From positions 1 to 51,684 of the forward strand of contig JANWVF010000045.1 of assembly GCA_025056965.1 (NCBI GenBank): a stretch of 51,684 nt of DNA, given 5' to 3'. Shown here piece after piece: positions 21,599 through 40,796 of the stretch. The notes under the pieces are model-generated. The model made no database searches. It was not told where the DNA came from and worked only from the letters and a program-made list of their open reading frames with translations. The position numbers and the translations under genes are program-made. This stretch comes from Thermoflexales bacterium. GTDB taxonomy: Bacteria > Chloroflexota > Anaerolineae > J036 > Brachytrichaceae. The number at the start of each line of letters is the position of its first letter. Position 1 is the first letter of the stretch.

Positions 21599-21681
21599 CT
21601 TCTTCTCTTCTCCTTTGTTAGGGTCTTCGGAACATTCAGCGAGTGCGCTGCTTCGCACATCCGCGCTCGCCATGACGACGG

Positions 21682-21709
21682 ATTCTACGGTAAAGAGTAG
21701 TTTGAGCAA
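21682..21709 (-). promoter_or_regulatory. Candidate promoter of the nucleoside transporter operon
   Basis: On the minus strand TTGCTC (21704-21709) and TAGAAT (21682-21687) are spaced by 16 bases, pointing to the BMP lipoprotein gene. The -10 has one mismatch to consensus and the -35 is moderate. It lies in the 129-base gap after the PLP-enzyme gene, so the importer may be transcribed separately from the upstream genes. Confidence 0.35.
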
Positions 21710-21727
21710 ACTCATCCGTGCGCCCGT

Positions 21728-23125: not shown

Positions 23126-23214
23126 ATGAAATCTCCAGTCAGACAAGTTGACAACTCCAAATCACGACGCACTAGGCATAGGTTACCCGCTGAAGGGCGT
23201 TGCAAAGGGGCGCG

Positions 23215-24030
23215 TCAAGCGTCGCCAAGGGTGATGCTGAGCCCGGCGACCGGCACGAACACATGGCCGTCGAACTCGCGCTGTGCTTCCTCGATCAGCG
23301 CGTGCTCTCGGCCCTCATAGATCGCGTCAATGTGCACGAGCGCCAGGCGCTGCGCGCCGCAGGTGCGAGCGTTGCGGCCAGCGATTTGTGCTGTGCTGTG
23401 ACCATACGCACCGTCGGCATACTCCGGGTTGAGCGTGGCGCTGTAGGTTGCCTCATGGACGAGTAGCTCGGCATCGCGCCCCAGCAAAGCGATGTTGTCG
23501 TTTGGGCCGGTATCACCCGTGAAGGCAACGACGTGCTTCCCGAGTTGGTTGCGCGTCTCGATGCGTAAACCGAGCGACGGCGCGAAGTCCGAATGGGCCA
23601 TGGGCGCGGTGGTCAGCATGATGTTCGGATGAATCTGCGTCCGGCCGATGCTCTCCTGCGGCACGCTGATGCGCGGCGCGCTTTCGGCCACGCCCTCCAC
23701 CGTCCCATAGCTCACGGCCATCAGCGCGTCGAGCGCGTCGAATGTCTGAGGGCTGGCGATGAGCGTGGGCGCTTGCAGTTTCGGATCTTCGCTGAGCTCA
23801 TACCACAACATCAGCATCGGATAGCCCAACACGTGGTCGCCGTGGCGATGGGTGAAGAAGACGTGCGTGATCTGCGCCGGCGAGATGCCTACTGCGTCGA
23901 GTTGCTGGAGGATCGCCGGCCCGCAGTCAATCAGGATGTTTTCGTTGCCGGCTCGGACGAGATAGGCGGCATTGGTGCCGTTGCGCATCGGGATCGCCGC
24001 GCCTACGCCCAAGAAGATTACCTCAATCAT
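23215..24030 (-). CDS. RNase Z-like metallo-beta-lactamase-fold hydrolase
   Basis: This 271-residue metallo-hydrolase of the RNase Z/ElaC-like clade has the metal motif THRHGDH near residue 61 and a second ligand His in APMAHSDF near 146. The ligand Asp is in FTGDTGPND near 175 and the last His in LVHIDAIYE near 240. Members act as tRNA 3' endonucleases or arylsulfatase/phosphodiesterase-like enzymes. The exosite arm needed for tRNA processing is not evident, so a small-molecule phosphodiesterase or lactonase is equally possible. ATG 24030 (MIEVIFLG) is preferred over the 24087 start because the domain begins there and GGAGG lies upstream. Confidence 0.85.
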   Translation of the reverse strand: MIEVIFLGVGAAIPMRNGTNAAYLVRAGNENILIDCGPAILQQLDAVGISPAQITHVFFTHRHGDHVLGYPMLMLWYELSEDPKLQAPTLIASPQTFDALDALMAVSYGTVEGVAESAPRISVPQESIGRTQIHPNIMLTTAPMAHSDFAPSLGLRIETRNQLGKHVVAFTGDTGPNDNIALLGRDAELLVHEATYSATLNPEYADGAYGHSTAQIAGRNARTCGAQRLALVHIDAIYEGREHALIEEAQREFDGHVFVPVAGLSITLGDA

Positions 24031-24064
24031 GCTGCTGACGCCTTCCTCCGCACGATGCGCGCGC

Positions 24065-24766
24065 CTATTCATATCGCCACAGGTCACCCTGAGCGCGCCT
24101 GACGGCGAGCGAGGCCGGCCTCGCTCCGCCCTGAGCCGTAGCGCCGTGCTCCGACATGGGCTGGATACTCAGCGCTGAGCCGGATATCGAGAAAGTGTAA
24201 GTCGCATTCGACTTGACCGGAGCGCCGCCGCAAAGCGTCTCTAGGTCGTGGACGGCGCGATCGAGATGGTTGACGAGGATGGCTAGTTCGGCGATCCCCT
24301 GAGCGCCGTTAGGATGGCTGCGCTGCTCGCCGGTCGGGACGCGCAGCTCACGAGGGGTCAAGTCCTCGATGAGGAACGGCAATCCCTCAGCGCCCTGCGG
24401 CGGCCAGCTCGTGCGCCAGCGAATCGTAATGCCATCGGGACGTTGTCGCCCGCCCTCGACCGGCGCCGTGTAGTCAAGCCCGCGGACGTTGATCTGTTGC
24501 ACGAACGCCGGCAGGTCGCTCACGGCTACTGCGTAGTCAATGAGCCCAGGGGCGGAGCGGAAGCGATCCCAGCGGTGGGACGTAGCTGCGGGGGTGCGAA
24601 AGGCGAGCAGCTCGATGTAGCTGCCGTCGGCGAAACAGATGAGCGCGTTGTGGGTCAAGCCGTCGGCATGTACCCCACCCGGCGTGACGGTGAAGCCGTC
24701 GTCGCGCCATCGGCGTTGTGCTGCATCGAGGTCATCAACCAGGATGACGACGTGGTCGAGTTTCAT
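24065..24766 (-). CDS. Glyoxalase-like (VOC superfamily) protein
   Basis: This 233-residue protein has a canonical VOC beta-alpha start (MKLDHVVILVDDLDAAQRRW), which fixes the start at 24766 although the frame is open to 25075. The segment GGVHADGLTHNALICFADG and the second half starting GIAELAILVNHLDRAV form paired beta-alpha-beta modules. The layout fits the glyoxalase-like domain (PF13468 type), which is usually not catalytically characterised. A metal-binding His/Glu set is incomplete, so activity is uncertain. It stands first in the run of minus-strand genes leading to the nucleoside importer. A structured 380-base non-coding stretch precedes it. Confidence 0.75.
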   Translation of the reverse strand: MKLDHVVILVDDLDAAQRRWRDDGFTVTPGGVHADGLTHNALICFADGSYIELLAFRTPAATSHRWDRFRSAPGLIDYAVAVSDLPAFVQQINVRGLDYTAPVEGGRQRPDGITIRWRTSWPPQGAEGLPFLIEDLTPRELRVPTGEQRSHPNGAQGIAELAILVNHLDRAVHDLETLCGGAPVKSNATYTFSISGSALSIQPMSEHGATAQGGARPASLAVRRAQGDLWRYE

Positions 24767-24847
24767 GCCGGAGAAAGTATAGACGGGTGTGTAGCCAGGC
24801 GCACCTACTATGGCTATGTGCTCGTCCTCGCCGTCATCGCGGTCGTG

Positions 24848-24880
24848 GGTGGCGCTAACCGTTAGCTGGGCATCGCCACC
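24848..24880. repeat. Nested palindrome
   Basis: Outer arms GGTGGCG (24848-24854) and CGCCACC (24874-24880) pair perfectly. Inside them GCTAAC-C-GTTAGC (24854-24866) is itself a 13-base palindrome. The element lies 82 bases upstream of the glyoxalase-like start. It could be an operator, an mRNA leader stem or a REP-like unit. Confidence 0.6.
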
Positions 24881-25001
24881 TTCTAACAAGCGCGCCCGGC
24901 CCTGCATCGGCGGCTGTTTGGGCACGACTGTGGCATCCCAGCCTATGACACCTTTCGACGACTTGGCGACGGATGTCAGGCAGGTAGCCCATCGGGTTGG
25001 G

Positions 25002-25116
25002 CTGATGGGTGAAATGACGATTTCAGGTCTTGCACGGATAGTGATGGCTGCTGCTATGGTGTTTACCTTGTTCAACCGCCGATTCGCTTTGGCATCTTAG
25101 ACACTTCACCCATCAG
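25002..25116. repeat. 12-base perfect inverted repeat pair
   Basis: CTGATGGGTGAA at 25002-25013 recurs as its reverse complement at 25105-25116, enclosing 91 bases. The 115-base unit has the shape of a miniature inverted-repeat element or a deleted insertion sequence. No target-site duplication is obvious. Confidence 0.55.
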
Positions 25117-25145: not shown

Positions 25146-26009
25146 TCAGAATTCTTGCTGTTGTTCAACCGCAAGTCGCTCAGCTTCGTCTTCGGGAATG
25201 GCTAGTGCCACATGCAGTGTGTTCGCGCTAATCCGCGGCGGTTCACCCACCGGCACCAAGTCGCGTTCCAGTTCAACCACGGTGTTAGTCAATCGCCCGA
25301 TGCCCGATGCTTCCACCTCGACCACATCGCCGATGTTTACCGGCCGCGAGTTGGCTGGCGTGCCCGTAAGCAGGAGATCGCCTTCCTCTAGTGTGATCAG
25401 CCGTGAGAGATCGGCGATCTGATACGCAAACGAGAAAATCAGGTCGCTGCCGGTGTGTGCTTCTTGCACCACGCGACCGTTCACATACGTCCTTAGGGTG
25501 ATGTCGTTCGGGTCAATGTCGGCCGCATCTACGATGAACGGTCCGACCGGACAAAAGCCATCGTGCCCTTTCACGCGCAACATACTGCCGCGGTCGGCGT
25601 GGCGAAAGTCGTGCACACCCCAATCGTTGGCCACTACGTAGCCGCGCACGTAGTCTAGCGCGCCCTCCATCGGCACGTTGCTGCACCGACGACCAATCAC
25701 CACGCCGATCTCGCCCTCGTAGTTCAGGAATTTGCAGCCGCGCGGGCGCGCCACTGTTGCGCCATGATGCGAGAGCGACGACGGCGGCTTCATGAAATAT
25801 GATGGATATTCAGGGATGCGCTTCATCTTGTATTCCATGCATCGGCTGCGATAGCTAAGGTGGCAAGCGATGATCTTACTGGGCCGCACTGGTGGCAGGT
25901 AACGCGCCTGCGCTGCGGGCACGCGTTTGCCCGAGGCAAGCACAATGTCATCACCTTGCAGCGTGCCCCACGTGGGCACGTCTTCGTGCATGATTAGTGC
26001 GCGTTTCAT
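25146..26009 (-). CDS. FAH-family enzyme (HpaG/HpcE-like isomerase/decarboxylase)
   Basis: This 287-residue fumarylacetoacetate hydrolase family protein hydrolyses, isomerises or decarboxylates ring-cleavage products in aromatic catabolism. The metal-site Glu pair lies in NYEGEIGVVIG near residue 96-106, and the third ligand Asp in VANDWGVHDFR near 128. The usual end motif is LLTGTPANSRPVNIGDVVEVE. It is closest in pattern to 2-hydroxyhepta-2,4-diene-1,7-dioate isomerase / 5-oxopent-3-ene-1,2,5-tricarboxylate decarboxylase. Its ATG overlaps the preceding gene's stop by four bases, so translation is coupled. It is the last gene of the catabolic module and probably acts after extradiol cleavage and aldehyde oxidation. 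Confidence 0.85.
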   Translation of the reverse strand: MKRALIMHEDVPTWGTLQGDDIVLASGKRVPAAQARYLPPVRPSKIIACHLSYRSRCMEYKMKRIPEYPSYFMKPPSSLSHHGATVARPRGCKFLNYEGEIGVVIGRRCSNVPMEGALDYVRGYVVANDWGVHDFRHADRGSMLRVKGHDGFCPVGPFIVDAADIDPNDITLRTYVNGRVVQEAHTGSDLIFSFAYQIADLSRLITLEEGDLLLTGTPANSRPVNIGDVVEVEASGIGRLTNTVVELERDLVPVGEPPRISANTLHVALAIPEDEAERLAVEQQQEF

Positions 26010-26806
26010 CGCAGCAGCATCTCCTTATCGTGCTGCGCTACTACTGTTACGCCATCTACGCTGTAGCCAAAGCTGAAGCGATAGCCCTTGATGATCTCCT
26101 TCGGGGCAATAGCTTGCAGGTCTTCAATCGTGTCGTCGTAGAGCCGCAGCTCAGCATCGCCTTCCCAGCACTCGCTGAACTCGCGGTCGTAGCCACCCGC
26201 GCGCACCAGCTCGAACACATCAGGGCGCAGGCCGCTCGCTGCCGGGAAGTGGCGCGTGTTGTACATCGGTGGTGCGTTCACCTTTGGTCCTTCTTTGCTG
26301 ATCTGACGCAGGGTGACCACCGCGCGGGCGATCTGCCGGTCGTTGGCAGTACAAGTTGCGCCGAAGCGCCCACCCGGCGCGATCTTCGGCGTTGCCTTGC
26401 CGCATGGGAAAACGCGCGTGATATGGATCGAGCCGAGCTTCTTCGGGAAGCCCTGGATGTAACCGCGGAACATAGCAAAGTCTTTATCCACCCAGATGTA
26501 GGCGCAGCGGCTAACGGGCTGGCCTTTGTATTTGCCACCGATCACCAGAAAGAACTCGCGGTACTGACATTGGATCGGATCGACGATCTCGTGAAAATCG
26601 TCCGAGCACGATTGCCAATCGGCGAAGATCGCGGCCACAGCGCCCGGATCATCGGCCGGCTCCAGTTCTGGCGGCAGCAGTGCGATGACGCCATCGGGGT
26701 TAGTGCGATATTCAACGATCAGGAAATCGCCGGAATAGTGCCACGGCGGTGGCGGCACTAGGCTGGCACGGCCATCGGGAGAGAGCGGATAAGAGTAGCC
26801 TTTCAT
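26006..26806 (-). CDS. Acetoacetate decarboxylase-family enzyme
   Basis: This 266-residue protein has the ADC fold. The Schiff-base Lys region is GYIQGFPKKLGSI with Lys122/Lys123, and the partner Glu84 is in QYREFF, as in acetoacetate decarboxylase (Lys115/Glu76). Members decarboxylate beta-keto acids or, in the wider superfamily, catalyse aldol-type reactions on pyruvate. ATG 26806 is chosen because AAGGTG lies ten bases upstream; an ATG at 26848 overlaps the preceding gene. The start lies four bases after that gene's stop and the end overlaps the FAH gene, so the three are tightly coupled. The substrate is probably a ring-cleavage-derived keto acid. Confidence 0.82.
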   Translation of the reverse strand: MKGYSYPLSPDGRASLVPPPPWHYSGDFLIVEYRTNPDGVIALLPPELEPADDPGAVAAIFADWQSCSDDFHEIVDPIQCQYREFFLVIGGKYKGQPVSRCAYIWVDKDFAMFRGYIQGFPKKLGSIHITRVFPCGKATPKIAPGGRFGATCTANDRQIARAVVTLRQISKEGPKVNAPPMYNTRHFPAASGLRPDVFELVRAGGYDREFSECWEGDAELRLYDDTIEDLQAIAPKEIIKGYRFSFGYSVDGVTVVAQHDKEMLLR

Positions 26807-26810
26807 GTTT

Positions 26811-27908
26811 TTATTCACCTTCTGGTCGCGACGAGACTGCCGCGACAAATGCTGTGTTCAAAATCGATTGCAGGCGCGTCGTCCACCGGTCGCGTCCGGT
26901 GCGCACGTGCGTGTTGGACAAGACGGCAATCACTACATCGTGCTGTGGGTCAATCATCAGCATGCAGCCGCTGGCGCCGCCGTGACCGAAGGTACGCGGC
27001 GAGGCTAGGTCGCAGTACAGCCCGGGCGTCGCCTCGGTTTGCAACGCCCAGCCCAGCCCCCAAGGCACCGGAGCATCGGGGCTGAGACCACTGAGCGAGA
27101 TGTGCGTGCCAAATACGCCGCCAGTCTGGTCGCGCGTCATCGCCTGCACGGTGGCCTCTGTGTGGATGCGCGGCCCACCAGGTGTGAAGTGCAATGTGAA
27201 CGCCAGCAAGTCGCGCGCAGTCGCAAACGTGCCGAAGGCAGGATGTGCCAGTTGGCGTGCGTAGTGCGAGTTGTACATTGCGCCGTCGGTATCCTCGGCC
27301 ATCACACCACGGATGTGCGCAATGCGATCGTATTCCGTTGTCGGCGGCGGCATGAAGGTGTCGCGCAGGCCCATCGGGTCAATCACCAGCTCTTGCACTA
27401 GTTCGGCAAAGCGGCGACCAGTGACTACCTCGGCCATATGCCCGGCCAGCAGTGTGTTGTAATCGGCATAGCTGATGGACGAGCCAGGCGCGAACAGCAA
27501 CGGCGCAGTGTAGGCCTCTTCAATCAGCTCAGCCACAGGTGTGTGTGCCATCAACCGCGCCTCCATTTCGGGTGATTCGTAGATGAGGCCAGAGGTGTGG
27601 GTGAGCAAATGTCGCAGCCGCACTTGTTCGCGGCCATCGCCGGTGAACCTGGGCAGCACATGGCACACCGGCGTGTTGAGCGTGAGCATGCCCAGCTCCA
27701 CCAACCGCATGATCATCGCAGTCGAATACACCTTGGAGATGGATGCTAGTGGCCATAGCACGCTAGCACCCGAAGGCAAGCCAGGTGCAGCTTCGCCGGC
27801 ATAGTATTCCACTGCAATTTGCCCATGATGGGCCGCGATGACCGCGGCGCCTGCAAACCCGCCATCTGCGATATGTCGCTCGACGACGGCCCGCACGTGC
27901 TCCGACAT
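26811..27908 (-). CDS. Serine hydrolase, class C beta-lactamase-related
   Basis: This 365-residue protein of the Pfam Beta-lactamase/EstB group lacks a signal peptide, so it is probably cytoplasmic. The Ser-x-x-Lys nucleophile motif is ASISK near residue 55. The second motif, usually YxN, reads YAD in ISYADYN. The third is HGG in TFGHGGASG. Relatives are esterases, D-aminopeptidases or amide hydrolases. In this module it could cleave an amide or ester, for instance a gamma-glutamyl amide made by the ligase encoded upstream. That is inference. The stop lies four bases before the ADC-like start. Confidence 0.82.
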   Translation of the reverse strand: MSEHVRAVVERHIADGGFAGAAVIAAHHGQIAVEYYAGEAAPGLPSGASVLWPLASISKVYSTAMIMRLVELGMLTLNTPVCHVLPRFTGDGREQVRLRHLLTHTSGLIYESPEMEARLMAHTPVAELIEEAYTAPLLFAPGSSISYADYNTLLAGHMAEVVTGRRFAELVQELVIDPMGLRDTFMPPPTTEYDRIAHIRGVMAEDTDGAMYNSHYARQLAHPAFGTFATARDLLAFTLHFTPGGPRIHTEATVQAMTRDQTGGVFGTHISLSGLSPDAPVPWGLGWALQTEATPGLYCDLASPRTFGHGGASGCMLMIDPQHDVVIAVLSNTHVRTGRDRWTTRLQSILNTAFVAAVSSRPEGE

Positions 27909-27950
27909 TTACGTTCTCTGGCTACAGCACGCAACGCCCCTTTAACAAGC

Positions 27951-28880
27951 TTACACTTCTACAAACGAATGTGCGCTGGCACGTTCTTTCTCCACCGAAG
28001 CCGGGTCGAAGCGGAAGTAGCTGCGCGGCGGCAGTACGCCCCATGTGTTGGATGAATAAGCATTATCGGGATACACTTGAGGTTGGTGATCTTCGTCCAG
28101 CACCTGCATATCGCAATATAGCTCGATGAAATGCTCTTCTTCCCACATGCGCCAATACGAGGCAAGGTTTTGTGCCATGCCGTGGCGCAACGGCCCCCAT
28201 GTGATGTAGCGCCCGTGCTTGCAGATGTGATCGAGCGCGATGCGCATCTCGCCCCAGTCCACGAGCTCGAAGGCGATGTGGTGAATGTGGTTGTAGCCCT
28301 TCTCCAAGAATGCCAGCACGTGGTGGCGCGAGTCAATGTGCAACCACACTGCGGCGTCGCCAATCCAGTCGGTTAGCCGGAAGCCCAGCACGTTGGTGTA
28401 CCACGCGAAGACGCGCTTCACGTCGGCAGTGAGGTAATTCACATGGCCTAGCCGCCGTGGATGATAGCCGCGCAGCGTGGTGGTGGGGATCATCACAGCT
28501 GGGCGCACATCGGCTGGCAATCGTCGTTCGACCAACACGACGTGATTGCCGTCGGGATCGCGCAGCAGCAGGCCATGCCCGCGCACTGGCACAGCGATAT
28601 CTTCCGGCGACTCGCCGCGCTCAATGAGTATGCGGCGCGCTTCAGCTAGGCTCATCCCCGGCACGAGCTCGTAGGCCACATAGTCCACACCAGGCAAGCG
28701 GCCGTCGGCTGGTGTGAAGGCCACGCAGAAATCTTCGTGGGCGCAGCGCATGATTGCGCCATTGCCCATTCGCTCGCCGTGCAGGCCGAGCAAAATCTCG
28801 TAGCGATGCATCGCCTCATCCACGTCAGCCACGGCGATGCGCACATGGTGAAGATTGATACACAATCGGGGGTTGTTCAT
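27951..28880 (-). CDS. Extradiol ring-cleavage dioxygenase (type I, VOC fold)
   Basis: This 309-residue Fe(II)-dependent dioxygenase of the catechol 2,3-dioxygenase type has two VOC modules. The metal ligands of the C-terminal module are visible: His146 in RLGHVNYL, His201 in NHIHHIAFE and Glu253 in HFIELYCD. The catalytic His candidate is His200 or the nearby SRHHV. ATG 28880 follows a perfect GGAGGT and overlaps the P450 stop (ATGA). It should cleave a catechol next to its hydroxyls to a semialdehyde, which the module's aldehyde dehydrogenase could oxidise, as in the HpaD/HpaE pair. Which catechol is not readable. Confidence 0.85.
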   Translation of the reverse strand: MNNPRLCINLHHVRIAVADVDEAMHRYEILLGLHGERMGNGAIMRCAHEDFCVAFTPADGRLPGVDYVAYELVPGMSLAEARRILIERGESPEDIAVPVRGHGLLLRDPDGNHVVLVERRLPADVRPAVMIPTTTLRGYHPRRLGHVNYLTADVKRVFAWYTNVLGFRLTDWIGDAAVWLHIDSRHHVLAFLEKGYNHIHHIAFELVDWGEMRIALDHICKHGRYITWGPLRHGMAQNLASYWRMWEEEHFIELYCDMQVLDEDHQPQVYPDNAYSSNTWGVLPPRSYFRFDPASVEKERASAHSFVEV

Positions 28881-30142
28881 AGCGACCTCCACGATACGCG
28901 CACCGGCAGATGTTTGATGCCGGAGATAAAATTCGAGCGCAGCCGCTCAATCGGCCCAGCCAGCTCGATCGATACGATGCGCGGCAGTAGTTCTTCCAGC
29001 AGTATGCGAATTTCCGCGCGCGCCAAGTGTTCACCCAGGCACTTGTGCGGCGATTGCAGCCCAAAGGCCAGATGTTCGTTAGGCTTGCGCAACACGTCGA
29101 AGCGATACGGGTCGGGGAACTGGCGTTCATCGTAATCGCCGGAGATGAACCAGATCACGACCTTATCGCCTGCACGGATGCGACGACCGCCCAGCTCGGT
29201 GTCTTGCGTGGCCGTGCGGCGAAAGTGCATCGTCACCGTGCCCCAGCGCAGAATCTCTTCGACGGCAGTCGAGATGTGCTGCGGTTCGCGCTGCAGCAGC
29301 GCCAGTTGATCGGGATGCTCGATCAGCGCATGCATGCCTGCAGCCATGGTGTAGCGCGTGGTGTCGTTGCCTGCCGCCACCAACAGCGTGAAGAAGTTTT
29401 TGAATTCGTGATCGCTGAGCGGTTCGCCATCGCGCTTGGGCTGCAGTAACATCGAAATTACGTCGGTGCCAGGGTTGGCCTTTCGCTCCGCCGCCAGCTT
29501 CTCGGCATAGGCAAACAGCTCCAGGCTCACCGGACTGCGAAAAGGCAGCAGCCGGTAGTCCGACGTGTCCACCTTGTCCACTGGGTAGTTGGTGAACTCA
29601 GGGTCAGCGTTGCCGATAAGCGCATCACCGTTGCGTACCAGCCAAGGCAGGTCGGCCTCGGGCAGGGCGAGCATGGAGCCGAGCATGCGCATAGGCAACT
29701 GCCGTGCGATTCGCTCGACGAAGTCAAATTCGCTCACACCGTGTAGATCATCTATCACCGCGCGCGCCATCTGCCGGATGACAGGTTCGTAGGTGGCGAC
29801 TTGGCGTGGGGTGAAGGCCGGATTCACCATGCGGCGATAAGCAGTATGCTTCGGCGGGTCGAGCTCCATCATCGTGGTGCGCGCTTTCAACTCGTCCGGC
29901 GCCATATCTTCTAGACGGATGCCGCGTGCGCTGCTGAACAGATGTGGCGAGTGGCTAACGTGCAAAATGTCGTGATAGCGCGTTACGGCCCAAAAGCCGC
30001 GTCCATCGTGCTCATCCCACCAGCTCACTGGATCCTCGTCGCGCAGGCGCTTGAACGTGGCATGAGGCACACCGGACACATACACATCGGGATCGGTGAT
30101 ATCGGCGAATCGGTCTTGTGTGTTCAGTTCTAGTCTCGTCAT
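28877..30142 (-). CDS. Cytochrome P450, CYP125-like
   Basis: This 421-residue soluble bacterial P450 has the I-helix AGNDTTRYT near residue 243, ExxR in EEILRW near 290 and the heme Cys in AFGLQSPHKCLGEHLAR near 355. The Cys loop has one residue more than the common FGxGxHxC form, as I recall for CYP125 proteins. The N-terminal DPDVYVSGVP and the RMVNPAFTPR stretch also recall that group. ATG 30142 follows AGAGGG; a GTG at 30151 is less likely. It is translationally coupled to the extradiol dioxygenase, so it probably hydroxylates the aromatic substrate or a precursor. No ferredoxin or reductase gene is nearby. Confidence 0.9.
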   Translation of the reverse strand: MTRLELNTQDRFADITDPDVYVSGVPHATFKRLRDEDPVSWWDEHDGRGFWAVTRYHDILHVSHSPHLFSSARGIRLEDMAPDELKARTTMMELDPPKHTAYRRMVNPAFTPRQVATYEPVIRQMARAVIDDLHGVSEFDFVERIARQLPMRMLGSMLALPEADLPWLVRNGDALIGNADPEFTNYPVDKVDTSDYRLLPFRSPVSLELFAYAEKLAAERKANPGTDVISMLLQPKRDGEPLSDHEFKNFFTLLVAAGNDTTRYTMAAGMHALIEHPDQLALLQREPQHISTAVEEILRWGTVTMHFRRTATQDTELGGRRIRAGDKVVIWFISGDYDERQFPDPYRFDVLRKPNEHLAFGLQSPHKCLGEHLARAEIRILLEELLPRIVSIELAGPIERLRSNFISGIKHLPVRVSWRSL

Positions 30143-30292
30143 ACAGAACACCCTCTACGGCGTTACCGGTGCGCTACGGAGAGCACAACCTACATCTCAA
30201 CTTCGGCTTCCTTGCGCATTAACGCCAAGCTGCGGCTGCATACTCGTGCTCAGTGGGGCGCGCGCCGATGCTCACTCGCACTGTAGCCTGGT

Positions 30293-31576
30293 CTACAAGA
30301 ACGGCAGGTAGTACTTCAATTCCCAGTCGGTGACGGCGTAGGCGAACTTCTCCCACTCGGCGCGTTTGGTCGCCACAAATTGCGCTACGCTCTCTGGGCT
30401 GAACGCTTCGACGAATTCTTTGTCGGCCTCCAGCGCCTCTAGCGCAGCGCTCAGGTTAGTGGGGGTGTGACGATTGGTGCTCTGGTGCTCTAGACAGTCT
30501 TGCTCTTCGGCAGGCGGCGGGGTGAGGTTGTTCACTACACCCAGCCGCGCAGCCTGCAACACGGCGGCGGTGGCGTAGTAGGGACTGGCTGCGCCATCGG
30601 GCATGCGATGTTCGATGCGAGTGGCCTTGCCACGTTCGTGCGGGATGCGCACAGTGACGCCGCGATGATCGTATCCCCAGTTGGCCCAGAAGCCGGCCAG
30701 TTGCGCAGGCTTCAACCGCTTGTAGGCGTTCACCGTCGGTGCGCATAGGGCAGTCATGCCTTCGTGATGGGCGATCAACCCGGCGATGCACTGGTGCGCC
30801 AACTTTGACAAGCCATCGGGCGCTTCGGGGTCAGCCATGGCGTTGTGGCCGTACTTGTCGCGCAGCGAGAAGTTGACGTGCAGGCCGCTGCCGCCGCGGT
30901 CGGCAAATGGCTTACCGATGAACGTGAGCAACAGGCCGTGCTTAGCAGCGATCTCGCGCGCCATTAACTTGAACAGGAAGATATTGTCCACGGCGCGCAG
31001 AGCATGATCGTGCACCAGCGTCATCTCGAATTGCGGCGTGTCATATTCGCTGTTGATGCTTTCGATGGGCAGGCCGCATCTGTCGGCAGTGGCCATGATC
31101 TCGTCGAATAGCCCGACCGGATCAACTGCGTGGCCGGTGCCGTACACGTAGGCAGTGGGGGTATGCCATTCCGTCCAGCCGCCGCGGCCGTCGGGCTGCA
31201 TGACGAAGGCCTCCAGCTCGATGCCGACGATGGGCTGATAGCCAAGCGCTTCCCAGTCAGCGATGGCCTTGCGCAACACACTGCGTGGGGCGTGACGCAA
31301 CGGCTCGCCGTGATAAAACGCATCGCCTACCACTACGCCGGTATCGGGTTCCCAGCCGGGGCGCACCTCATCCATTGAGAATTTCAAATCGAAGTCAGGC
31401 AAGCCTTCGAGCAACTTGGAGCCGGGCGCAGGCACCATTGTTCGGTCGAATGCCAACGCGAATAGCGCCGTGCAATGGCGTGCACCGTTAGCAGCCACTG
31501 CGGCTGGCAAATACTTGCCGCGCGCAAGCCCCAGATGATCGGGGAACAAAGCGCGAATTCGTTTGTAGTTTGTCAC
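30293..31576 (-). CDS. Glutamine synthetase-like gamma-glutamyl ligase
   Basis: This 427-residue protein of the GlnA family starts at GTG 31576 behind AAGGAGG. Metal and glutamate motifs are present: IELEAFV near residue 119, EYDTPQFEM near 175, GSGLHVNFSL near 230, VRIP near 310 and EHRMPDGAASPY near 325, where most GlnA have Asn in place of the Ser before PY. The protein is shorter than type I GS and lacks an obvious adenylylation loop. Sequences like this include PuuA-type glutamylpolyamine and AtdA1-type glutamylanilide synthetases. Next to an amino acid decarboxylase it probably glutamylates an amine. The amine is unknown. Confidence 0.85.
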   Translation of the reverse strand: MTNYKRIRALFPDHLGLARGKYLPAAVAANGARHCTALFALAFDRTMVPAPGSKLLEGLPDFDLKFSMDEVRPGWEPDTGVVVGDAFYHGEPLRHAPRSVLRKAIADWEALGYQPIVGIELEAFVMQPDGRGGWTEWHTPTAYVYGTGHAVDPVGLFDEIMATADRCGLPIESINSEYDTPQFEMTLVHDHALRAVDNIFLFKLMAREIAAKHGLLLTFIGKPFADRGGSGLHVNFSLRDKYGHNAMADPEAPDGLSKLAHQCIAGLIAHHEGMTALCAPTVNAYKRLKPAQLAGFWANWGYDHRGVTVRIPHERGKATRIEHRMPDGAASPYYATAAVLQAARLGVVNNLTPPPAEEQDCLEHQSTNRHTPTNLSAALEALEADKEFVEAFSPESVAQFVATKRAEWEKFAYAVTDWELKYYLPFL

Positions 31577-31618
31577 AGAAGCCTCCTTAAGGTTAAGAGC
31601 AGAACCTTGTGTATCAAA

Positions 31619-33769
31619 CTAGCGGGCACGCGATCGCTGCTTTGCCATTACCTCGCCCACTATCAGCCGGGCAACTTTGTGCAGATGCCGTACGAAATCA
31701 GCCAGGTAGTCCATGCCCGCTTCGAGTGCTGTCGGGTAAAGCGGGTTCATGGCCGTCGAACGTAGTACCACTAGCGACGACTTAGCATATTCGTCCGGGT
31801 CAATGTGCAGTGCGCGCAACAGCGGCAGCAGCGCATCGCGGCTATATCGCGCCGGCTCGAATACGGTGCGCGAGACGAAATACTCTTTGTCATATGGCAT
31901 CTGCACGCCGCGCGCGGGCTTGGGAATGTCACAGGCTTCGTGAATGCGCCGGTTGATCTGGTTGATCACGGCCAACGGCACGTGAGCAGGGACGAACGCG
32001 TCACCTTGCCGAACCATCGGCCGAGCGATGAAGCACACGATGTTCGTATCCGGCTCGCACAGCGGGATAAACGCAAACGGATGCGCAGACGGTGTGCCGT
32101 AATTGGCTTCGTAGCGCTGGAAGTTCGCGCGGTGTTGTGCCAGATGCCAGTACAGTTTGCGCGCGCTCAACACACTGGCACGCATGATGCTGCCATGACC
32201 CTGCGCATCGAGCGGAATGGTGGTGTGGGCCAACCAGCACGCCGTCGCAGCTGCGCCGGGCTTCGATCCTTCCAAAATATACGGCCCGACGGCGTTGATC
32301 TCGGCCATGGCGTCAATTGCCTTCACCCCCTCGGTTTCCTCCGAGATGTAACGCGCATGCTGGGTCATCAGCTCGGTCACTAGGCCGTTCTTGAACGCGA
32401 CTACTCCTGCCGGGTATGGCACATGCCCGAGCTTATGCGGATCGACCACGATCGAATCGGCCAGTGGCAAAGCGAGAAAGGCGCGATAGACCTCTGGGTC
32501 ATCCCACGCGACGGTTGCGCGTGTGCCGGGATTGATGACGTCGCGAGCGGCGATAGCACGCCGGAAGCGGTTGACGGTGGCTGCGCTGGCGAGTTCGCCC
32601 TTGTGATCAGCGGCGATGTCGTGGCCGCAAAACAACGCGCGAATGTAACCGCCCCAGGCTGCGTCGGCGTGGATCCAGAAAGACTGATTGTGCGTGCGCG
32701 CTCGCTCGGCCCGGATGGCGCTCAGTGTGTGGATTGGATCAACCGCGCCTTCTTCAGTGGTGCCGACCACGCCAATCACCGCAGCCACATACTCACGCGA
32801 ATCGAGCGAATCAAGCATGGCACGCAGGGCAGTAGTGTCGATGCGGAATTGACGGTTGACTGGCACGGCACGCAGGCAATCTTCGCCATAGCCCAGCACA
32901 TGCATCACTTTGAACAGACAGTAATGCGCCGCCGCCGAAGCGAAGATTACCGGCCGCATGCCGGCCTTGCGCACCACCGCATCGAACCCACGCAACTTGA
33001 CGTTATAGGCGCTGCGCCGCACGAACTCGTTCAAGCGCGAGAGCACGCGCCGCTGTGAGCGCCCCAATGTATTTACCTCGTAGCGTGCCAGCGCGCGCAA
33101 GAGGCTGATGGCTGTGTCGGGTGGCAAGTGAATCAGCTCCGCGGGGCTTAGATCGACGACGCGCGCAGGCTGGCCGTTGGCAGCTTGTATGGTGAAATCG
33201 GGCGCGTGTCGTTTGCAGTAGTCGCGCACCATGAACGGCGTAAACTGCACCATGCGCGCCACCCAGAGCGCCTCCAGGTTAGCCACAGTGCCGCCGGAGC
33301 AGATGTGCGCCCAGGCGCGTTCCGGCGCGTAGCCCAGCATGGCTGCTACCATGCGACCTACTTCCAGCTCCAGCCGCACTGTCACCGGTGCAGCTTCGTC
33401 GGTGACGTTGTTCGGGTTATAGAGCATGCCCGCGAAGTAGCCTAGCACCGCGGGGATGGTTTGCTCGGAGGTCATGTGCGCGATGTAACGCGGCGAATAA
33501 AACGGGTAATCGGCCTTCAGGTTGCTTAGGATGGTGTCCACGCATGCGCTGAGTTTGTTCTGCCAGGATTCGTGCTCGCGTCGCAGCTCGTGACGTAGAA
33601 CCACCGGATCTTTGGGGAAGTAGTTCCGGCGCCAGTGAACGTAATCCTGAAAGATGTAGGTGAGTGTGTTGAAGACAACGTCGCTGTGTTCGGACTTGGG
33701 ACCCAGGAACCACGCGGTGAGCGGATCACTAGCATGACTAGCATTATGGGCGCGCCACAGGTCTTTCAT
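31619..33769 (-). CDS. PLP-dependent group II decarboxylase, tyrosine decarboxylase-like
   Basis: This 716-residue aspartate-aminotransferase-fold decarboxylase has its PLP Lys at Lys446 in VVDPHKLGHVPYPAG, and HADAAWGG supplies the Asp that binds the pyridine. The VDPHK-x-G-x2-PY pattern and the length above 600 residues match bacterial tyrosine decarboxylases rather than glutamate decarboxylases. It probably turns an aromatic amino acid into an amine. ATG 33769 (MKDLW) has AGGAGG nine bases upstream. An ATG at 33778 overlaps the previous stop (ATGA) but would leave no RBS spacing. The frame upstream to 33922 is a shadow of the preceding gene. Confidence 0.87.
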   Translation of the reverse strand: MKDLWRAHNASHASDPLTAWFLGPKSEHSDVVFNTLTYIFQDYVHWRRNYFPKDPVVLRHELRREHESWQNKLSACVDTILSNLKADYPFYSPRYIAHMTSEQTIPAVLGYFAGMLYNPNNVTDEAAPVTVRLELEVGRMVAAMLGYAPERAWAHICSGGTVANLEALWVARMVQFTPFMVRDYCKRHAPDFTIQAANGQPARVVDLSPAELIHLPPDTAISLLRALARYEVNTLGRSQRRVLSRLNEFVRRSAYNVKLRGFDAVVRKAGMRPVIFASAAAHYCLFKVMHVLGYGEDCLRAVPVNRQFRIDTTALRAMLDSLDSREYVAAVIGVVGTTEEGAVDPIHTLSAIRAERARTHNQSFWIHADAAWGGYIRALFCGHDIAADHKGELASAATVNRFRRAIAARDVINPGTRATVAWDDPEVYRAFLALPLADSIVVDPHKLGHVPYPAGVVAFKNGLVTELMTQHARYISEETEGVKAIDAMAEINAVGPYILEGSKPGAAATACWLAHTTIPLDAQGHGSIMRASVLSARKLYWHLAQHRANFQRYEANYGTPSAHPFAFIPLCEPDTNIVCFIARPMVRQGDAFVPAHVPLAVINQINRRIHEACDIPKPARGVQMPYDKEYFVSRTVFEPARYSRDALLPLLRALHIDPDEYAKSSLVVLRSTAMNPLYPTALEAGMDYLADFVRHLHKVARLIVGEVMAKQRSRAR

Positions 33770-33774
33770 CGCAA

Positions 33775-34281
33775 TCATCCTCCTGCAAACAACTCGTCCA
33801 GCCGCTTGAATACGTCGATGAGCGCGCGCACTTGACCATGACCCATCGGCACATAGCGCGACGTGCGCGGGAAGGCCATATACACCCACGCCGCGCCCAT
33901 TTGCGTGGTGCGCGCGCGCCAACCTGTGCTGTCTTGTATCAACACGAACTCAATGAAGTCGAGCGTCGTCAACCGCTCACGCACCACTGCATCGCGCAAG
34001 AACGCATTAACAACAGCCGCGTTGCCGCGGCGGGCACGGGCCTGCACACCGGTGCGGGTGATGACGCCCGTATGCGTCAGGTGCACTTCGCACTCGCCAG
34101 CGGGTGTGTTGGCGAAAGCGTACTCGAACTGCATCACCGCCGTGCACATGAGGAGGCCACGCTGCTCACACACGCGCAGCGCGATCGGCTGCGACAATTC
34201 CGGCACGCGCAGACGATCTCCATCAATGCCCCCGGCTATCGCCTTGAACTCCTGGGATAACCTTTGCGTAAGCGATTGCAT
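33775..34281 (-). CDS. Hypothetical protein, possibly DUF3156-like
   Basis: This 168-residue soluble protein has a basic N terminus, a central RTGVQARARRGN stretch, and a C-terminal part with MGAAWVYMAFPRTSRYVPM. The FPrtxRYVPM motif recalls the uncharacterised DUF3156 family found beside amino acid permeases, but I cannot confirm it. The gene starts 4 bases after the permease stop and overlaps the decarboxylase start region, so it is part of the same transcript. No active-site motif is visible. It could be a small binding or regulatory component of this catabolic module. Confidence 0.65.
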   Translation of the reverse strand: MQSLTQRLSQEFKAIAGGIDGDRLRVPELSQPIALRVCEQRGLLMCTAVMQFEYAFANTPAGECEVHLTHTGVITRTGVQARARRGNAAVVNAFLRDAVVRERLTTLDFIEFVLIQDSTGWRARTTQMGAAWVYMAFPRTSRYVPMGHGQVRALIDVFKRLDELFAGG

Positions 34282-34285
34282 CGGA

Positions 34286-35722
34286 CTACGATAGTCCCTC
34301 TTCCTTCAAGATCGTCTCCGGCTCAACGCGGTCGAATGGTCGCTCGCGCCTCACCAGCACTAGCCACACGAACGCGAACACAGCACACACCGCCAGCATG
34401 ATGACAAACGGCACGTAGATCTGCTCGGAAGTGAGGAACGGCGGCGTGATGAACCCGATCGTTATCAGCATGCCAAGCGTAGCGATGATCTGCAGCAGCG
34501 GATACAGTGGCGCCTTGTACGGCCGATTGAGGTCGGGCCGACGCGCGCGCAGCACTATGACCGAGATGTTCACCAGCACATAGCCAAAGATCCACGCGCA
34601 CACACCGGCCAGCACGAACGCGATGACGCTGTTGATGTTGCCCTGAATTGAAATTGCGCCAATGATGGGGATGAGGGCCGCGAGGATGATGCCAACCCAT
34701 GGCGTCTTGAAGCGCGGGTGCAGATATCCAAAGATAGATGGCATCGTGCCATCTTTGGCCATACCGTATAGGATGCGTGGAATGCCGGCCAGCAGCGTGT
34801 TCACTGTGGAGCAGCCCGCCAGAAACGCCGCGATTCCCAGCCACAGTTTGCCAATGGGACCGAGAATGGCTAGGCCAAACGCTGGGATGGCCAGCGGCGT
34901 GTCAAATGTGAACACGCCCGGCTCAACCTCGGTGTTAGGCACTTGTCGCGCGATGCCCGCGCCATACACGAACATCGCCGCTGCGACCATCGTCACGCCC
35001 AGATACATCGCCAGCGGAATTGTGCGGTTGGGATTTTTCAGTTCGGGTGCCAGCGGCGTGACGTATTCCACGCCCACGAACAGAAACATCGCTAGGCCCA
35101 CCATTGCCAGCACGCTGTTGAGGTCGGTGCCGACGTTCGATTCGCCGAAGAAGCCGGTGACGCCGGACTGTGGCGCTCTTAGCACCCCGATCAACCCGAA
35201 GCTGAACAGCGTCACCCACATAACACCGGTCATAAGAGTCTCGATCCGCCCGAATACGTTTACGCCTAGCATATTGATTACCATGAATACCAGCACCACC
35301 AGCGTGCCGATGATCCACGTTGATTCGGTCGGCAAGGTGAGGTCGAAGTTCACTCGCGCAAACAGGCCAATTGATGCCACTTCGGCAGTGCCAGCGAACA
35401 CATGCACGACGAGATAGGCTGCCAGCGTAGCCATGATGGCCAGCAATCGGCCCAGGCCGGCGGCTACGTAGTCATACACCGCGCCCGATGTAGGCAGGAT
35501 GCCTGCGGCCTCGGCAAAGCTGGAGCTCTGGCACAACATGATGACGTAGGCGATGAGGATAGCGATGGCAAAGACCCAGCCGCCTGCGCCGTAGCCCTGC
35601 GTCGCGGTGAGCAGCACCGACGACGCAATGATGAGACCAATGGCTGCAGCCAGTGCGTCGGGGAAGCCAAGCGCGCCGAGCGCTAGTTTGGGAGTGTGCT
35701 CGTCTGTGGGTTTTATAGACAT
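34286..35722 (-). CDS. APC-superfamily amino acid/amine permease
   Basis: This 478-residue permease has 12 transmembrane helices. Helix I has the unwound substrate-binding segment AAAIGLIIASSVLLTATQG. Cytoplasmic loops include PELKNPNRTIPLA near residue 230 and the conserved RILYGMAKDGTMP near 325, which mark the amino acid-polyamine-organocation group. It should import the amino acid or amine that the module degrades. ATG 35722 follows AGGAGA with normal spacing. It is the third gene of the module, 27 bases after the aldehyde dehydrogenase. Substrate specificity cannot be read from sequence; an aromatic amino acid would suit the downstream decarboxylase. Confidence 0.92.
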   Translation of the reverse strand: MSIKPTDEHTPKLALGALGFPDALAAAIGLIIASSVLLTATQGYGAGGWVFAIAILIAYVIMLCQSSSFAEAAGILPTSGAVYDYVAAGLGRLLAIMATLAAYLVVHVFAGTAEVASIGLFARVNFDLTLPTESTWIIGTLVVLVFMVINMLGVNVFGRIETLMTGVMWVTLFSFGLIGVLRAPQSGVTGFFGESNVGTDLNSVLAMVGLAMFLFVGVEYVTPLAPELKNPNRTIPLAMYLGVTMVAAAMFVYGAGIARQVPNTEVEPGVFTFDTPLAIPAFGLAILGPIGKLWLGIAAFLAGCSTVNTLLAGIPRILYGMAKDGTMPSIFGYLHPRFKTPWVGIILAALIPIIGAISIQGNINSVIAFVLAGVCAWIFGYVLVNISVIVLRARRPDLNRPYKAPLYPLLQIIATLGMLITIGFITPPFLTSEQIYVPFVIMLAVCAVFAFVWLVLVRRERPFDRVEPETILKEEGLS

Positions 35723-35749
35723 GCGATTCTCCTGAGTGATGGGGGATGC

Positions 35750-37222
35750 CTAAGCAAACGTGCCAATGCGATAACACACGTTCTTAACGTCGCAGTAGAA
35801 GTCGAAGCTCCACAGGCCGCCTTCGCGCCCGATGCCACTATGACGCGCGCCACCGAACGGTGCTGCTAAGTCGCGCACGAAGAAGCAGTTCACCCACGCT
35901 GTGCCCGCTACTACAGCATTTGCCACGCGGTTGGCCCGCGCTTCATCGCGAGTGAAGATCACTGCTGCCAGGCCATATTCGGTGTCGTTGGCCATTGCAA
36001 TCGCTTCGTCTTCGTCGTGGAAGGCTTGCAGGGTGAGCACCGGCCCGAACACTTCCTTGCGCAGAATCTCGGCGCGGGGCGGTACATCAATGAACAATGT
36101 CGGCTCGAAATACAACCCACCGAGTTGCGGGTTCACTTTGCCGCCATACACCAGTCGCGCGCCGTCACGCACGGCGCCGTCCACAAATCGCTGCACCCGC
36201 GCTAGGTGATCGGGATGGATAAGCGGCCCAAACTCGTTGCCTGCCACGCGGGGATCGCCATACTTGATATGTGGCGCGCGCTCGATCATGCCTTCGAGGA
36301 AACGATCGTAGATGCCATGCTGCACCAGCAGGCGCGTGCCCGCTAAACACACCTGGCCGGCGTTGTCGTACTGGCCGAGGGCAGTCTTCAGCGCCAGCTC
36401 GAAGTCGGCGTCGTCGAAGACGATGAAGGGGCTTTTGCCGCCCAGTTCAAAGCTGACCGGCGTGAGGTTCTTCGCGGCCGCTGCGCCGATCAGCCGTGCA
36501 GTCTCGGGTGAGCCAGTAAAGGCGATGCGCTCGACGTCTGGATGCGCCACCAGCGCCGCGCCGGCCTCTTCGCCGATCCCCTGCACTACGTTGATCACGC
36601 CCGGCGGCACGCCTGCCTCGAGTGCACAGTCGGCGAGGAGCGACGCGGTGAGCGGCGCCCACTCCGGCGGCTTGAGCACGACAGTATTGCCCGCAGCCAG
36701 CGCCGGGCCAATGCGCCACGTGGCTAGCATAAGCGGCGCATTCCAGGGTGTGATCACCGCCGTCACGCCAGCTGGGTCGTAGCACACGCGGTTGTGCGCA
36801 TTGGCCGGTTGGGTGTCCCATTCAGCTGGGCGCAGGTTTTCGGCGTAGTCGGCGAAGAAGCGAATGTTATAGGCTGCGCGCCTCATCACGCGCAGGCGCA
36901 TCGCCTCGAGCAGCGAGCCGTTATCGTGCGTTTCGACTAAGGCAAGGTCGTCGTTACGTCGCTCAATTGCGTCGGCGAGGCGGCGCAAAATGGGTCCGCG
37001 CCCGTGCGGCCCCAGCGCGGCCCATCCCGCGAAGGCAGCTTTGGCCGCAGCTACAGCCTGGTCCACTTCCGCTTCGCCGCCAGCGGCGACGTGGGCCAAC
37101 ACCGTCTGGTCAATCGGAGAAATGTCAATGAACCGCCTGGCTGAACCAACACGCTGGTTGTTGATGAAGTGATCAGTTTTGACAGCGATGCCGGCAACAA
37201 TGGCCTGAGATGAGTCGGCCAC
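35750..37222 (-). CDS. NAD(P)-dependent aldehyde dehydrogenase (HpaE/BetB-like)
   Basis: This 490-residue ALDH superfamily enzyme oxidises an aldehyde to an acid. The catalytic Cys292 lies in AGQVCLAGTR. The general base Glu is in FELGGKSP near residue 258, the Rossmann Gly motif FTGSPETARLIG near 235, and Asn in TPWNAPLM near 160. It starts with GTG at 37222 behind GGAG. Patterns fit the 5-carboxymethyl-2-hydroxymuconate semialdehyde or betaine aldehyde dehydrogenase branch. In this module it would oxidise a semialdehyde made by extradiol cleavage, or an aldehyde from an amine. A MarR-like operator palindrome lies 33 to 49 bases upstream. Confidence 0.93.
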   Translation of the reverse strand: MADSSQAIVAGIAVKTDHFINNQRVGSARRFIDISPIDQTVLAHVAAGGEAEVDQAVAAAKAAFAGWAALGPHGRGPILRRLADAIERRNDDLALVETHDNGSLLEAMRLRVMRRAAYNIRFFADYAENLRPAEWDTQPANAHNRVCYDPAGVTAVITPWNAPLMLATWRIGPALAAGNTVVLKPPEWAPLTASLLADCALEAGVPPGVINVVQGIGEEAGAALVAHPDVERIAFTGSPETARLIGAAAAKNLTPVSFELGGKSPFIVFDDADFELALKTALGQYDNAGQVCLAGTRLLVQHGIYDRFLEGMIERAPHIKYGDPRVAGNEFGPLIHPDHLARVQRFVDGAVRDGARLVYGGKVNPQLGGLYFEPTLFIDVPPRAEILRKEVFGPVLTLQAFHDEDEAIAMANDTEYGLAAVIFTRDEARANRVANAVVAGTAWVNCFFVRDLAAPFGGARHSGIGREGGLWSFDFYCDVKNVCYRIGTFA

Positions 37223-37254
37223 AGAATACTCCAGATTGATAGATGTCTAACGAT

Positions 37255-37271
37255 CTTGAATACTAGTCAAG
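37255..37271. promoter_or_regulatory. Candidate MarR-family operator
   Basis: CTTGAATACTAGTCAAG is a 17-base near-palindrome with perfect 5-base arms CTTGA/TCAAG and a TA-C-TA core. It lies in the 61-base gap between the marR-like gene and the aldehyde dehydrogenase. MarR proteins bind 16-20 base palindromes often containing TTGA/TCAA. Position and form suit control of the catabolic module. Confidence 0.5.
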
Positions 37272-37283
37272 TGGCGAATAAAG

Positions 37284-37877
37284 TCAAGCCGATCGTCGGT
37301 TGCGCTTTCTGTTCACACTTGTCTTGCGCGCGCGCGTAGCCGCGCGAGATGTGCCTTGAGGCGATTGAGGCTCGGCTGTGTCGTTGCGAGTGATGCCATC
37401 CACGACTTTGCGCAGCAAGCGGGCGATCTCGGCGCGCTCTTCGGGATCGAGCACGCTGGAGATTTCCTGTTCGCCGCGGTTGAAGCGCGGGAAGAGTTCC
37501 TTGATGAGCGCTTCGCCTGCAGGCGTGAGCGAGGCAGTGACTAGCCGGCCATCATCCGGCGATGATGCGCGCACGCACAGGCCGCGCCTTTCCAGCATGG
37601 TCAGGTTGCTGGTGATGGTCGGGCGAGACACGCCCTGCAACCGGGCGATGTCGCGCACTTCGGCCGGCCCCCACACCCATACAATGAACAAGGTCGAGAA
37701 GCCTGACCATGTCAACCGGTAGCTCCGGAGCACCGAGCGTTCGAGCTTGAGCTTCATTGCCATGGCCGCCCGCCAGATGTTGGAAGCGACGGCCAGAGCA
37801 GGATAGTCAATGGGCAGGCCGGAGATGCGGCGCATGATGTCGCGCTCCTCCGGCCGCAAGTCGTCACTCACGCGCAC
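37284..37877 (-). CDS. MarR-family transcriptional regulator
   Basis: This 197-residue winged-helix regulator has the HTH near residues 80-98 (VRDIARLQGVSRPTITSNLTML). The wing includes SSPDDGRLVTASLTPAG, a typical MarR D-x-R segment. The N-terminal helix forms the dimer interface. The tail from about residue 165 is basic and disordered (RATRARKTSVNRKRNRR), unusual for the family. It starts at GTG 37877, where a -10-like TAGAAT at 37885-37890 would give a nearly leaderless transcript; ATG 37835 is an alternative. It stands first in the catabolic module and probably represses it until an aromatic ligand is present. Confidence 0.85.
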   Translation of the reverse strand: MRVSDDLRPEERDIMRRISGLPIDYPALAVASNIWRAAMAMKLKLERSVLRSYRLTWSGFSTLFIVWVWGPAEVRDIARLQGVSRPTITSNLTMLERRGLCVRASSPDDGRLVTASLTPAGEALIKELFPRFNRGEQEISSVLDPEERAEIARLLRKVVDGITRNDTAEPQSPQGTSRAATRARKTSVNRKRNRRSA

Positions 37878-40765: not shown

Positions 40766-40796
40766 GACAAGTAGAACGAGAGGAGTGTTTGCGAAC

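Follow-up and report, generated by a model that had tools for sequence, protein, structure and literature searches.

A conserved eleven-gene module in a Thermoflexales genome may degrade an aromatic amino acid by way of its gamma-glutamyl-tagged amine

The Puu pathway of Escherichia coli (PuuA-B-C-D) uses a homologue of glutamine synthetase (GS) to attach a gamma-glutamyl tag, which is then kept through oxidation. Eleven genes on contig JANWVF010000045.1 of a Thermoflexales bacterium (phylum Chloroflexota), within the 51,684-nucleotide stretch that was analysed and that we call the window, appear to form a module that applies the same device in the breakdown of an aromatic compound. Like Puu, the module is proposed to pass through gamma-glutamyl-aminobutyraldehyde and the gamma-glutamyl derivative of 4-aminobutyrate (GABA), and genes like PuuC and PuuD lie in related clusters. 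Unlike Puu, it would take an aromatic amine as substrate, no gene for the gamma-glutamylputrescine oxidase PuuB is found among the eleven, and the aldehyde would come from ring cleavage and a retro-aldol step. Isopropylamine degradation likewise employs gamma-glutamylation, by IpuC, and in P. aurescens TC1 ipuC lies with genes for an amidotransferase, a cytochrome P450, a ferredoxin and a reductase; its amine, however, is aliphatic, and no ring is cleaved. In the degradation of aniline (AtdA) and 1-naphthylamine (Npa), the amine is a ring substituent that is lost ahead of ring opening. There too an aromatic amine is gamma-glutamylated, by a GoaS-type enzyme, before oxidation and meta-cleavage (PMC11335346). 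The oxidation is nevertheless carried out by a Rieske dioxygenase and not by a P450, and these pathways have neither a decarboxylase nor an acetoacetate decarboxylase-superfamily (ADC) enzyme.

The ring-cleavage genes invite comparison with the homoprotocatechuate (hpa) pathway, to whose enzymes the module's HpaD-like extradiol dioxygenase, HpaE-like aldehyde dehydrogenase (ALDH) and HpaG-like FAH-family enzyme correspond in the same logical order. The module differs in that its genes fall below the hpa equivalog cut-offs (HpaD, 101 of 321 bits; HpaE, 545 of 638; HpaG-C, 213 of 276), it has no HpaBC, an ADC enzyme appears to replace the hydratase and aldolase, and its substrate is expected to be a gamma-glutamyl amide. 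A precedent for the lower steps is phenol meta-cleavage in Saccharolobus solfataricus, in which FAH-family and ADC/MppR-like enzymes are induced with catechol 2,3-dioxygenase and have been suggested to act as decarboxylase and aldolase (PMC7820114). That pathway involves no amine, tag, amino acid decarboxylase or P450. Catabolism of gamma-glutamyl-tyramine or gamma-glutamyl-dopamine was not found in the open-licence literature, nor was any pathway with this gene set, in keeping with the original prediction made from the DNA. To our knowledge, in no described pathway does a glutamate mask stay on an amine while the ring is cleaved, and we know of none in which an ADC-family enzyme replaces the meta-cleavage hydratase and aldolase. 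The module is real and conserved, as detailed below, and as a catabolic module apparently undescribed; it is best read as a variation on two known kinds of pathway, built from enzyme families that are all known.

The module occupies window positions 25146-37877 as eleven consecutive open reading frames, all on the minus strand, running from a MarR regulator to an FAH-family enzyme as had been predicted. The families named at that time were also recovered by Pfam, NCBIfam and PDB comparison. In order of transcription (L numbers denote related loci), the genes are:

37284..37877, minus: MarR-family regulator; Pfam MarR (PF01047, 2.4e-12); homologues in many related clusters, 53-59% in L047, L048, L051 and L052
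35750..37222, minus: HpaE-like aldehyde dehydrogenase; Aldedh (1e-156); best NCBIfam model HpaE, 544.6 bits (cut-off 638); 60% to Streptomyces lunaelactis pSLUN1; catalytic Cys in GQVCLAG
34286..35722, minus: APC amino acid/amine permease; AA_permease_2 (2.5e-36); 70-73% homologue within the L046-L048 clusters
33775..34281, minus: DUF3156 protein (PF11354, 5e-19); homologues beside APC in L046, L047 and L048
31619..33769 (start moved from 33922), minus: pyridoxal phosphate (PLP)-dependent decarboxylase of tyrosine decarboxylase (TyrDC)/ncAAAD type; Pyridoxal_deC with TyrDC C-terminal domain; bacterial tyrosine decarboxylase model TIGR03811, 281.6 bits (below the cut-off of 905.3); best PDB matches 6ebn and 5hsi
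30293..31576, minus: predicted GS-like gamma-glutamyl-amine ligase; Gln-synt_C (1.9e-88); ammonium-site residues replaced
28877..30142, minus: CYP125-like cytochrome P450; p450 (2.7e-27); closest PDB structures in the CYP125 group; AAGNDTT and heme Cys motif
27951..28880, minus: VOC-type extradiol dioxygenase; Glyoxalase (extradiol type); best NCBIfam models HpaD, 101 bits, and catechol 2,3-dioxygenase, 92 bits; aligns with XylE
26811..27908, minus: serine beta-lactamase/esterase-type hydrolase; Beta-lactamase (PF00144, 4.7e-63); SISK, YADYN and GHGG motifs conserved
26006..26806, minus: ADC-superfamily MppR-like enzyme; ADC (PF06314, 4.7e-56); closest PDB structure MppR, 228 bits; PKK invariant in A1
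25146..26009, minus: FAH-family enzyme, HpaG C-domain-like; FAA_hydrolase (PF01557, 1.2e-61); HpaG-C, 212.6 bits (cut-off 276); closest PDB structure HpaG 1gtt; YEGE and NDWG metal-site motifs

Spacing within the cluster is tight. Of the four-base overlaps noted before, one joins the ADC and FAH genes (26006-26009) and another the P450 and extradiol genes (28877-28880, provided that the latter starts at ATG 28880). The decarboxylase frame (31619-33922) is overlong, and ATG 33769, with AGGAGG about 8 nt upstream, gives a protein of 716 residues; the ADC gene most likely starts at ATG 26806 (266 residues). GC content is 60.5% in the cluster, compared with 62.8% and 64.3% in the flanks. For the three genes past FAH (Glyoxalase_3, metallo-beta-lactamase, PALP), none of 80 related loci shows a counterpart next to the module, and we therefore place its boundary at 25146.

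Which substrate is used, how the steps follow one another, what each enzyme does and where the tag is lost are inferred as follows. The APC permease would import tyrosine or tyramine, the TyrDC-like enzyme would convert tyrosine to tyramine, and the GS-like ligase would form gamma-glutamyl-tyramine, which the P450 could hydroxylate on the ring to gamma-glutamyl-dopamine. The extradiol dioxygenase would then open the ring adjacent to the side-chain carbon, the HpaE-like ALDH would oxidise the resulting semialdehyde, and the FAH enzyme would carry out tautomerisation and decarboxylation. Hydration and a Schiff-base retro-aldol reaction on the ADC enzyme would give pyruvate and gamma-glutamyl-4-aminobutyraldehyde; an aldehyde dehydrogenase would take the latter to gamma-glutamyl-GABA, from which the beta-lactamase-like hydrolase (PuuD in relatives) would release GABA and glutamate. 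The gamma-glutamyl tag would serve as a protecting group, since a free amine could cyclise onto the aldehyde formed when the ring is cleaved. A formula balance from gamma-glutamyl-tyramine through hydroxylation, ring opening, oxidation, decarboxylation, hydration and loss of pyruvate arrives at C9H16N2O4, the formula of gamma-glutamyl-4-aminobutanal; this is a sign of consistency and not proof, the same formula being reached from other positions of ring attack.

We think it probable that the eleven genes together encode the whole catabolism of an aromatic amino acid, L-tyrosine being the likeliest, by way of its amine. The fuller reading is of a widespread aerobic pathway in which the tag on a phenethylamine is kept through hydroxylation and ring opening and an FAH plus MppR-type aldolase lower route joins Puu at gamma-glutamyl-aminobutyraldehyde, with pyruvate and GABA as the products made from an aromatic amino acid. 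To this reading we give slightly less than an even chance (about 0.48). The predicted logic of import, decarboxylation, gamma-glutamyl tagging, hydroxylation, ring cleavage, degradation and tag removal agrees with every comparative test that was run. The pathway draws support from non-orthologous replacements at matching steps, VOC against LigB enzymes for ring cleavage and the beta-lactamase-like hydrolase against PuuD.

The module recurs widely. When 84,980 species genomes were scanned with five aligned module ADCs, 80 loci were obtained, which come from Chloroflexota, Deinococcota, Acidobacteriota, Actinomycetota, Pseudomonadota and Bacillota. Neighbours were counted in 52 ADC-anchored loci or records no shorter than 18 kb, and these counts rest on tblastn matches, longest-frame calling having produced antisense frames in high-GC loci. 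FAH is near ADC in 50 of the 52, P450 in 46, the HpaE-like ALDH in 44, GS in 41, and a gene of VOC extradiol, LigB extradiol or M29-like type in 39; GS, P450, ADC and FAH are all present in 35. The grouping is not a chance one. Families, several active-site motifs, co-localisation and gene replacements can all be read directly from these sequences. Plasmids carry the module as well. Searches through the GS-like protein reached S. lunaelactis pSLUN1 and a Novosphingobium megaplasmid with MarR, ring-cleavage enzyme, P450, GS, ALDH, ADC, FAH, a second ALDH and a ferredoxin, and a Streptomyces canus plasmid has a near-complete set including two ferredoxins and a ferredoxin-reductase-like gene. ADC homologues outside the module (Sinorhizobium, Bradyrhizobium; 39-41% identity), used as a negative control, lack the module neighbours. 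A comparable ADC occurs in just 5 of 400 sampled genomes of the window's phylum, which indicates a patchy distribution in that phylum and probable horizontal transfer of the trait. Two other baits were set aside: the decarboxylase found weak PLP-domain matches alone among 99 relatives, and is thus not common to the sampled class, and the extradiol dioxygenase found distant HpaD and VOC proteins alone in plasmids, which was uninformative.

The GS-like ligase conserves the catalytic equivalents E130, E132, E213, E221, H270, R322, R340, R345, E358 and R360 (E. coli GlnA numbering with Met1). The ammonium-site residues are lost (D50 to C, S53 to A, Y179 to V and E327 to L, the alignment near D50 being less certain), and these positions are also changed in PuuA and IpuC, to which the protein is 26% and about 34% identical, respectively. 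Such GS homologues make up the GoaS (glutamyl-organic-amide synthetase) class, with PuuA, IpuC, AtdA1 and NpaA1 among its members, and are reported to act on organic amines (PMC11335346); the window protein has both the GS fold with its metal and glutamate residues and the loss of the ammonium-binding residues that mark this group. Because of that loss, an enzyme acting on ammonia alone is disfavoured. Adjacency of GS to P450 is conserved across phyla.

What amine enters the pathway is suggested by the decarboxylases. In the window enzyme, whose best structural matches are a non-canonical aromatic amino acid decarboxylase (ncAAAD; 6ebn) and L. brevis TyrDC (5hsi), alignment to 5hsi finds H241, D328, K392 and Y398 identical, whereas Y331 is Trp and S586 apparently Thr; the roles of the PLP-site and substrate-loop residues in the L. 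brevis enzyme have been described (PMC4904194). Locus L048 has an additional decarboxylase that best matches DOPA decarboxylase (714 bits), a third type, that of the S. lunaelactis cluster, is again nearest to TyrDC and ncAAAD, and L051, L052, L061 and others contain additional PF00282 decarboxylases whose specificity is less certain. Because three decarboxylase types are closest to tyrosine, DOPA or aromatic amino acid decarboxylases, the comparison points to an entry amine of the phenethylamine type. The growth substrate could then be another member of this class or its amino acid, such as L-DOPA or dopamine, phenylalanine or phenethylamine, or an external amine of plant or animal origin that the cell imports. 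TyrDC accepts DOPA as well (PMC4904194), the DOPA-decarboxylase-like gene of L048 fits this alternative, and many clusters have no decarboxylase; in the S. lunaelactis and Brevibacillus clusters a decarboxylase is present and a P450 was not seen nearby, as fits a ready-made catechol, and clusters without P450 may start from DOPA or dopamine. The single P450 hydroxylation step of most clusters nevertheless best fits a mono-phenol such as tyramine, and the window decarboxylase is TyrDC-like, so we regard a different substrate as unlikely, though worth taking seriously.

For ring cleavage itself, two types of extradiol enzyme are found. The window extradiol dioxygenase is of the VOC type, and matches XylE at the 2-His-1-Glu iron ligands (H150, H204 or H205, and the Glu in IELYC), which are conserved, as is the RHG motif. 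Other clusters have a LigB-type enzyme instead, and the two types were not found together in any locus. In the Novosphingobium and S. lunaelactis clusters, the LigB-type genes (L034:12676-13533 and L036:560-1534) are annotated as catechol 1,2-dioxygenase; an intradiol enzyme, which would have contradicted the model, was considered and rejected, as Pfam assigns both to the LigB-type extradiol family and the annotation is misleading. Acidimicrobiia clusters with ADC, FAH, P450 and ALDH (L078, L080, L081, L076 and L103) often lack a recognised extradiol enzyme and share a Pfam-less protein that looks M29/NicX-like by eye, perhaps another solution to ring cleavage, together with an acyl-CoA-dehydrogenase-like protein.

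For the lower steps, the original prediction had listed the isomerase, hydratase and aldolase of meta-cleavage as absent. No HpaF, HpaH or HpaI is indeed found among the eleven genes, but the sequence comparison indicates that their functions are probably not missing but replaced by the FAH and MppR-like ADC enzymes. Of these, the FAH enzyme is similar to HpaG, a decarboxylase/isomerase. Structures close to the ADC enzyme are those of other ADC-superfamily proteins, the nearest being MppR, an aldolase-type member; the K136 of the window enzyme, invariant in five module ADCs, aligns with the Schiff-base lysine K156 of MppR, although its score against the MppR equivalog TIGR04460 is below the cut-off (249 of 380 bits). 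An MppR-type aldolase run in the cleavage direction could supply the hydration and retro-aldol steps.

Removal of the tag links the module to Puu. The S. canus and S. lunaelactis clusters encode a PuuD-like hydrolase and an ALDH 49-51% identical to E. coli PuuC, the known substrate of which is a tagged aldehyde, gamma-glutamyl-aminobutyraldehyde. PuuC and PuuD genes are not in the window cluster; unlinked PuuC-like and PuuD-like genes do occur in its genome, where a family-by-family search found several PuuC-like ALDHs (one 49% identical to that of S. canus) and class III aminotransferases. Unlinked PuuD-like genes are present in some of the other genomes as well. Homologues of the beta-lactamase-like hydrolase at 58% or more were found, among 14 carrier genomes searched, only in the L046 genome and three Deinococcales genomes, and within the stretches read this hydrolase and PuuD are together in no cluster; L047 lacks the former and has a PuuD gene 1.8 kb past the stretch read. 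This mutual exclusion, although seen in few cases, supports the predicted role of the serine hydrolase as the remover of the tag and a non-orthologous replacement of PuuD.

An alternative is that gamma-glutamyl-dopamine first loses its tag to the serine hydrolase or PuuD and that free dopamine is what the extradiol enzyme cleaves, comparable to the early loss of the tag in aniline degradation. PuuD-like amidotransferases beside GS-P450 pairs with no ring-cleavage genes nearby suggest that such enzymes can act on other gamma-glutamyl amides. However, the second ALDH of the Streptomyces clusters is closest to PuuC, and as a matter of general chemistry a free amine and a semialdehyde would be expected to cyclise. 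We consider removal before ring cleavage doubtful.

Whether the upper (31619-37877) and lower (25146-30142) genes belong together can be judged from the nearest relatives. L048 has on a single strand ALDH-TyrDC-ADC-FAH-extradiol-DOPA decarboxylase-APC-DUF3156-amidotransferase-GS-P450-PuuD, and in L046, L047, L051 and L052 the order is reshuffled with upper and lower genes equally mixed. Because of this interleaving, the two sets form one unit in these five clusters, as the single module of the original prediction implies, and are not independent there. Similarity matrices of the proteins correlate most tightly for GS-P450 (r=0.91) and ADC-FAH (0.86), with weaker links between the pairs (ADC-GS, 0.68; ADC-P450, 0.69), and none of 1000 permutations reaches the observed value. 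The two tight pairs, together with GS-P450 pairs that stand without ring-cleavage genes nearby in Ruegeria, Sagittula and Mesorhizobium, accompanied by an amidotransferase or similar hydrolase, would be compatible with an amine-modifying detoxification unit placed beside a homoprotocatechuate-type ring-cleavage unit. The correlations between the pairs, and gene orders that mix both sets in L046-L048, L051-L053 and L055-L059, make such an arrangement improbable. A GS-P450 and amidotransferase set, as also seen around ipuC, suggests an older sub-module that hydroxylates gamma-glutamyl amides. Sets of this kind with no ring-cleavage genes nearby in L035, L042, L044 and L144 may hydroxylate other gamma-glutamyl amides. 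Production of a secondary metabolite, such as a dopa-derived pyrrole or a betalain-like compound, is very improbable: extradiol dioxygenases and MppR-type enzymes are known in biosynthetic clusters and MppR is the nearest structure to the ADC enzyme, but synthetase, ligation and export genes do not recur, the genes for ALDH, FAH, the aldolase-type enzyme, PuuC and PuuD belong to catabolism, and some clusters have GABA-transaminase-like genes next to them.

Several observations weigh against a complete, tag-retaining tyrosine pathway as set out above. A recognised ring-cleavage gene was not seen in 13 of the 52 long loci; there are also clusters with no decarboxylase, and others in which the stretch read contains no P450. 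Both a PuuC-like second ALDH and a ferredoxin to serve the P450 are missing from the window cluster, and the second ALDH of Brevibacillus scores best as a phenylacetaldehyde dehydrogenase. The exclusion between PuuD and the beta-lactamase-like hydrolase rests on few clusters with the latter gene. Finally, no window gene reaches an NCBIfam equivalog cut-off, and thus none is assigned to a named equivalog.

If the proposed pathway is correct, it would give a testable function to many genes that carry no more specific annotation than glutamine synthetase family protein, cytochrome P450, acetoacetate decarboxylase family protein or similar, and a physiological role to the GoaS class and to non-decarboxylating ADC enzymes. 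It would link tyramine or dopamine degradation to GABA formation, and would be relevant both to uncultured Chloroflexota and Deinococcota and to culturable Actinomadura, Rhodococcus, Streptomyces, Kordiimonas and Brevibacillus.

DUF3156, the product of the gene after the APC permease (window 33775-34281; L046:4585-5127; L048:15615-16196), travels with that permease in Chloroflexota clusters and is a possible accessory to transport or decarboxylation; its structure prediction (pLDDT 46) was not used. An LLM-class luciferase-like oxidoreductase recurs within the module of relatives at L046:7951-8880, L047:15156-16091 and L041:5294-6217, in Chloroflexota and in Actinomycetota including Actinomadura. 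Outside the conserved module, window positions 20486-25075 downstream encode a Bmp/PnrA-type substrate-binding protein with an ABC ATPase, a PALP enzyme, a metallo-beta-lactamase-fold protein and a Glyoxalase_3 protein. On the other side, tandem plus-strand genes at 38486-40765 and 40785-43061 encode RCC1-repeat proteins of about 760 residues with 12-14 repeats each, adjoined by a LytR-CpsA-Psr protein with SH3_3 domains at 44403-46412.

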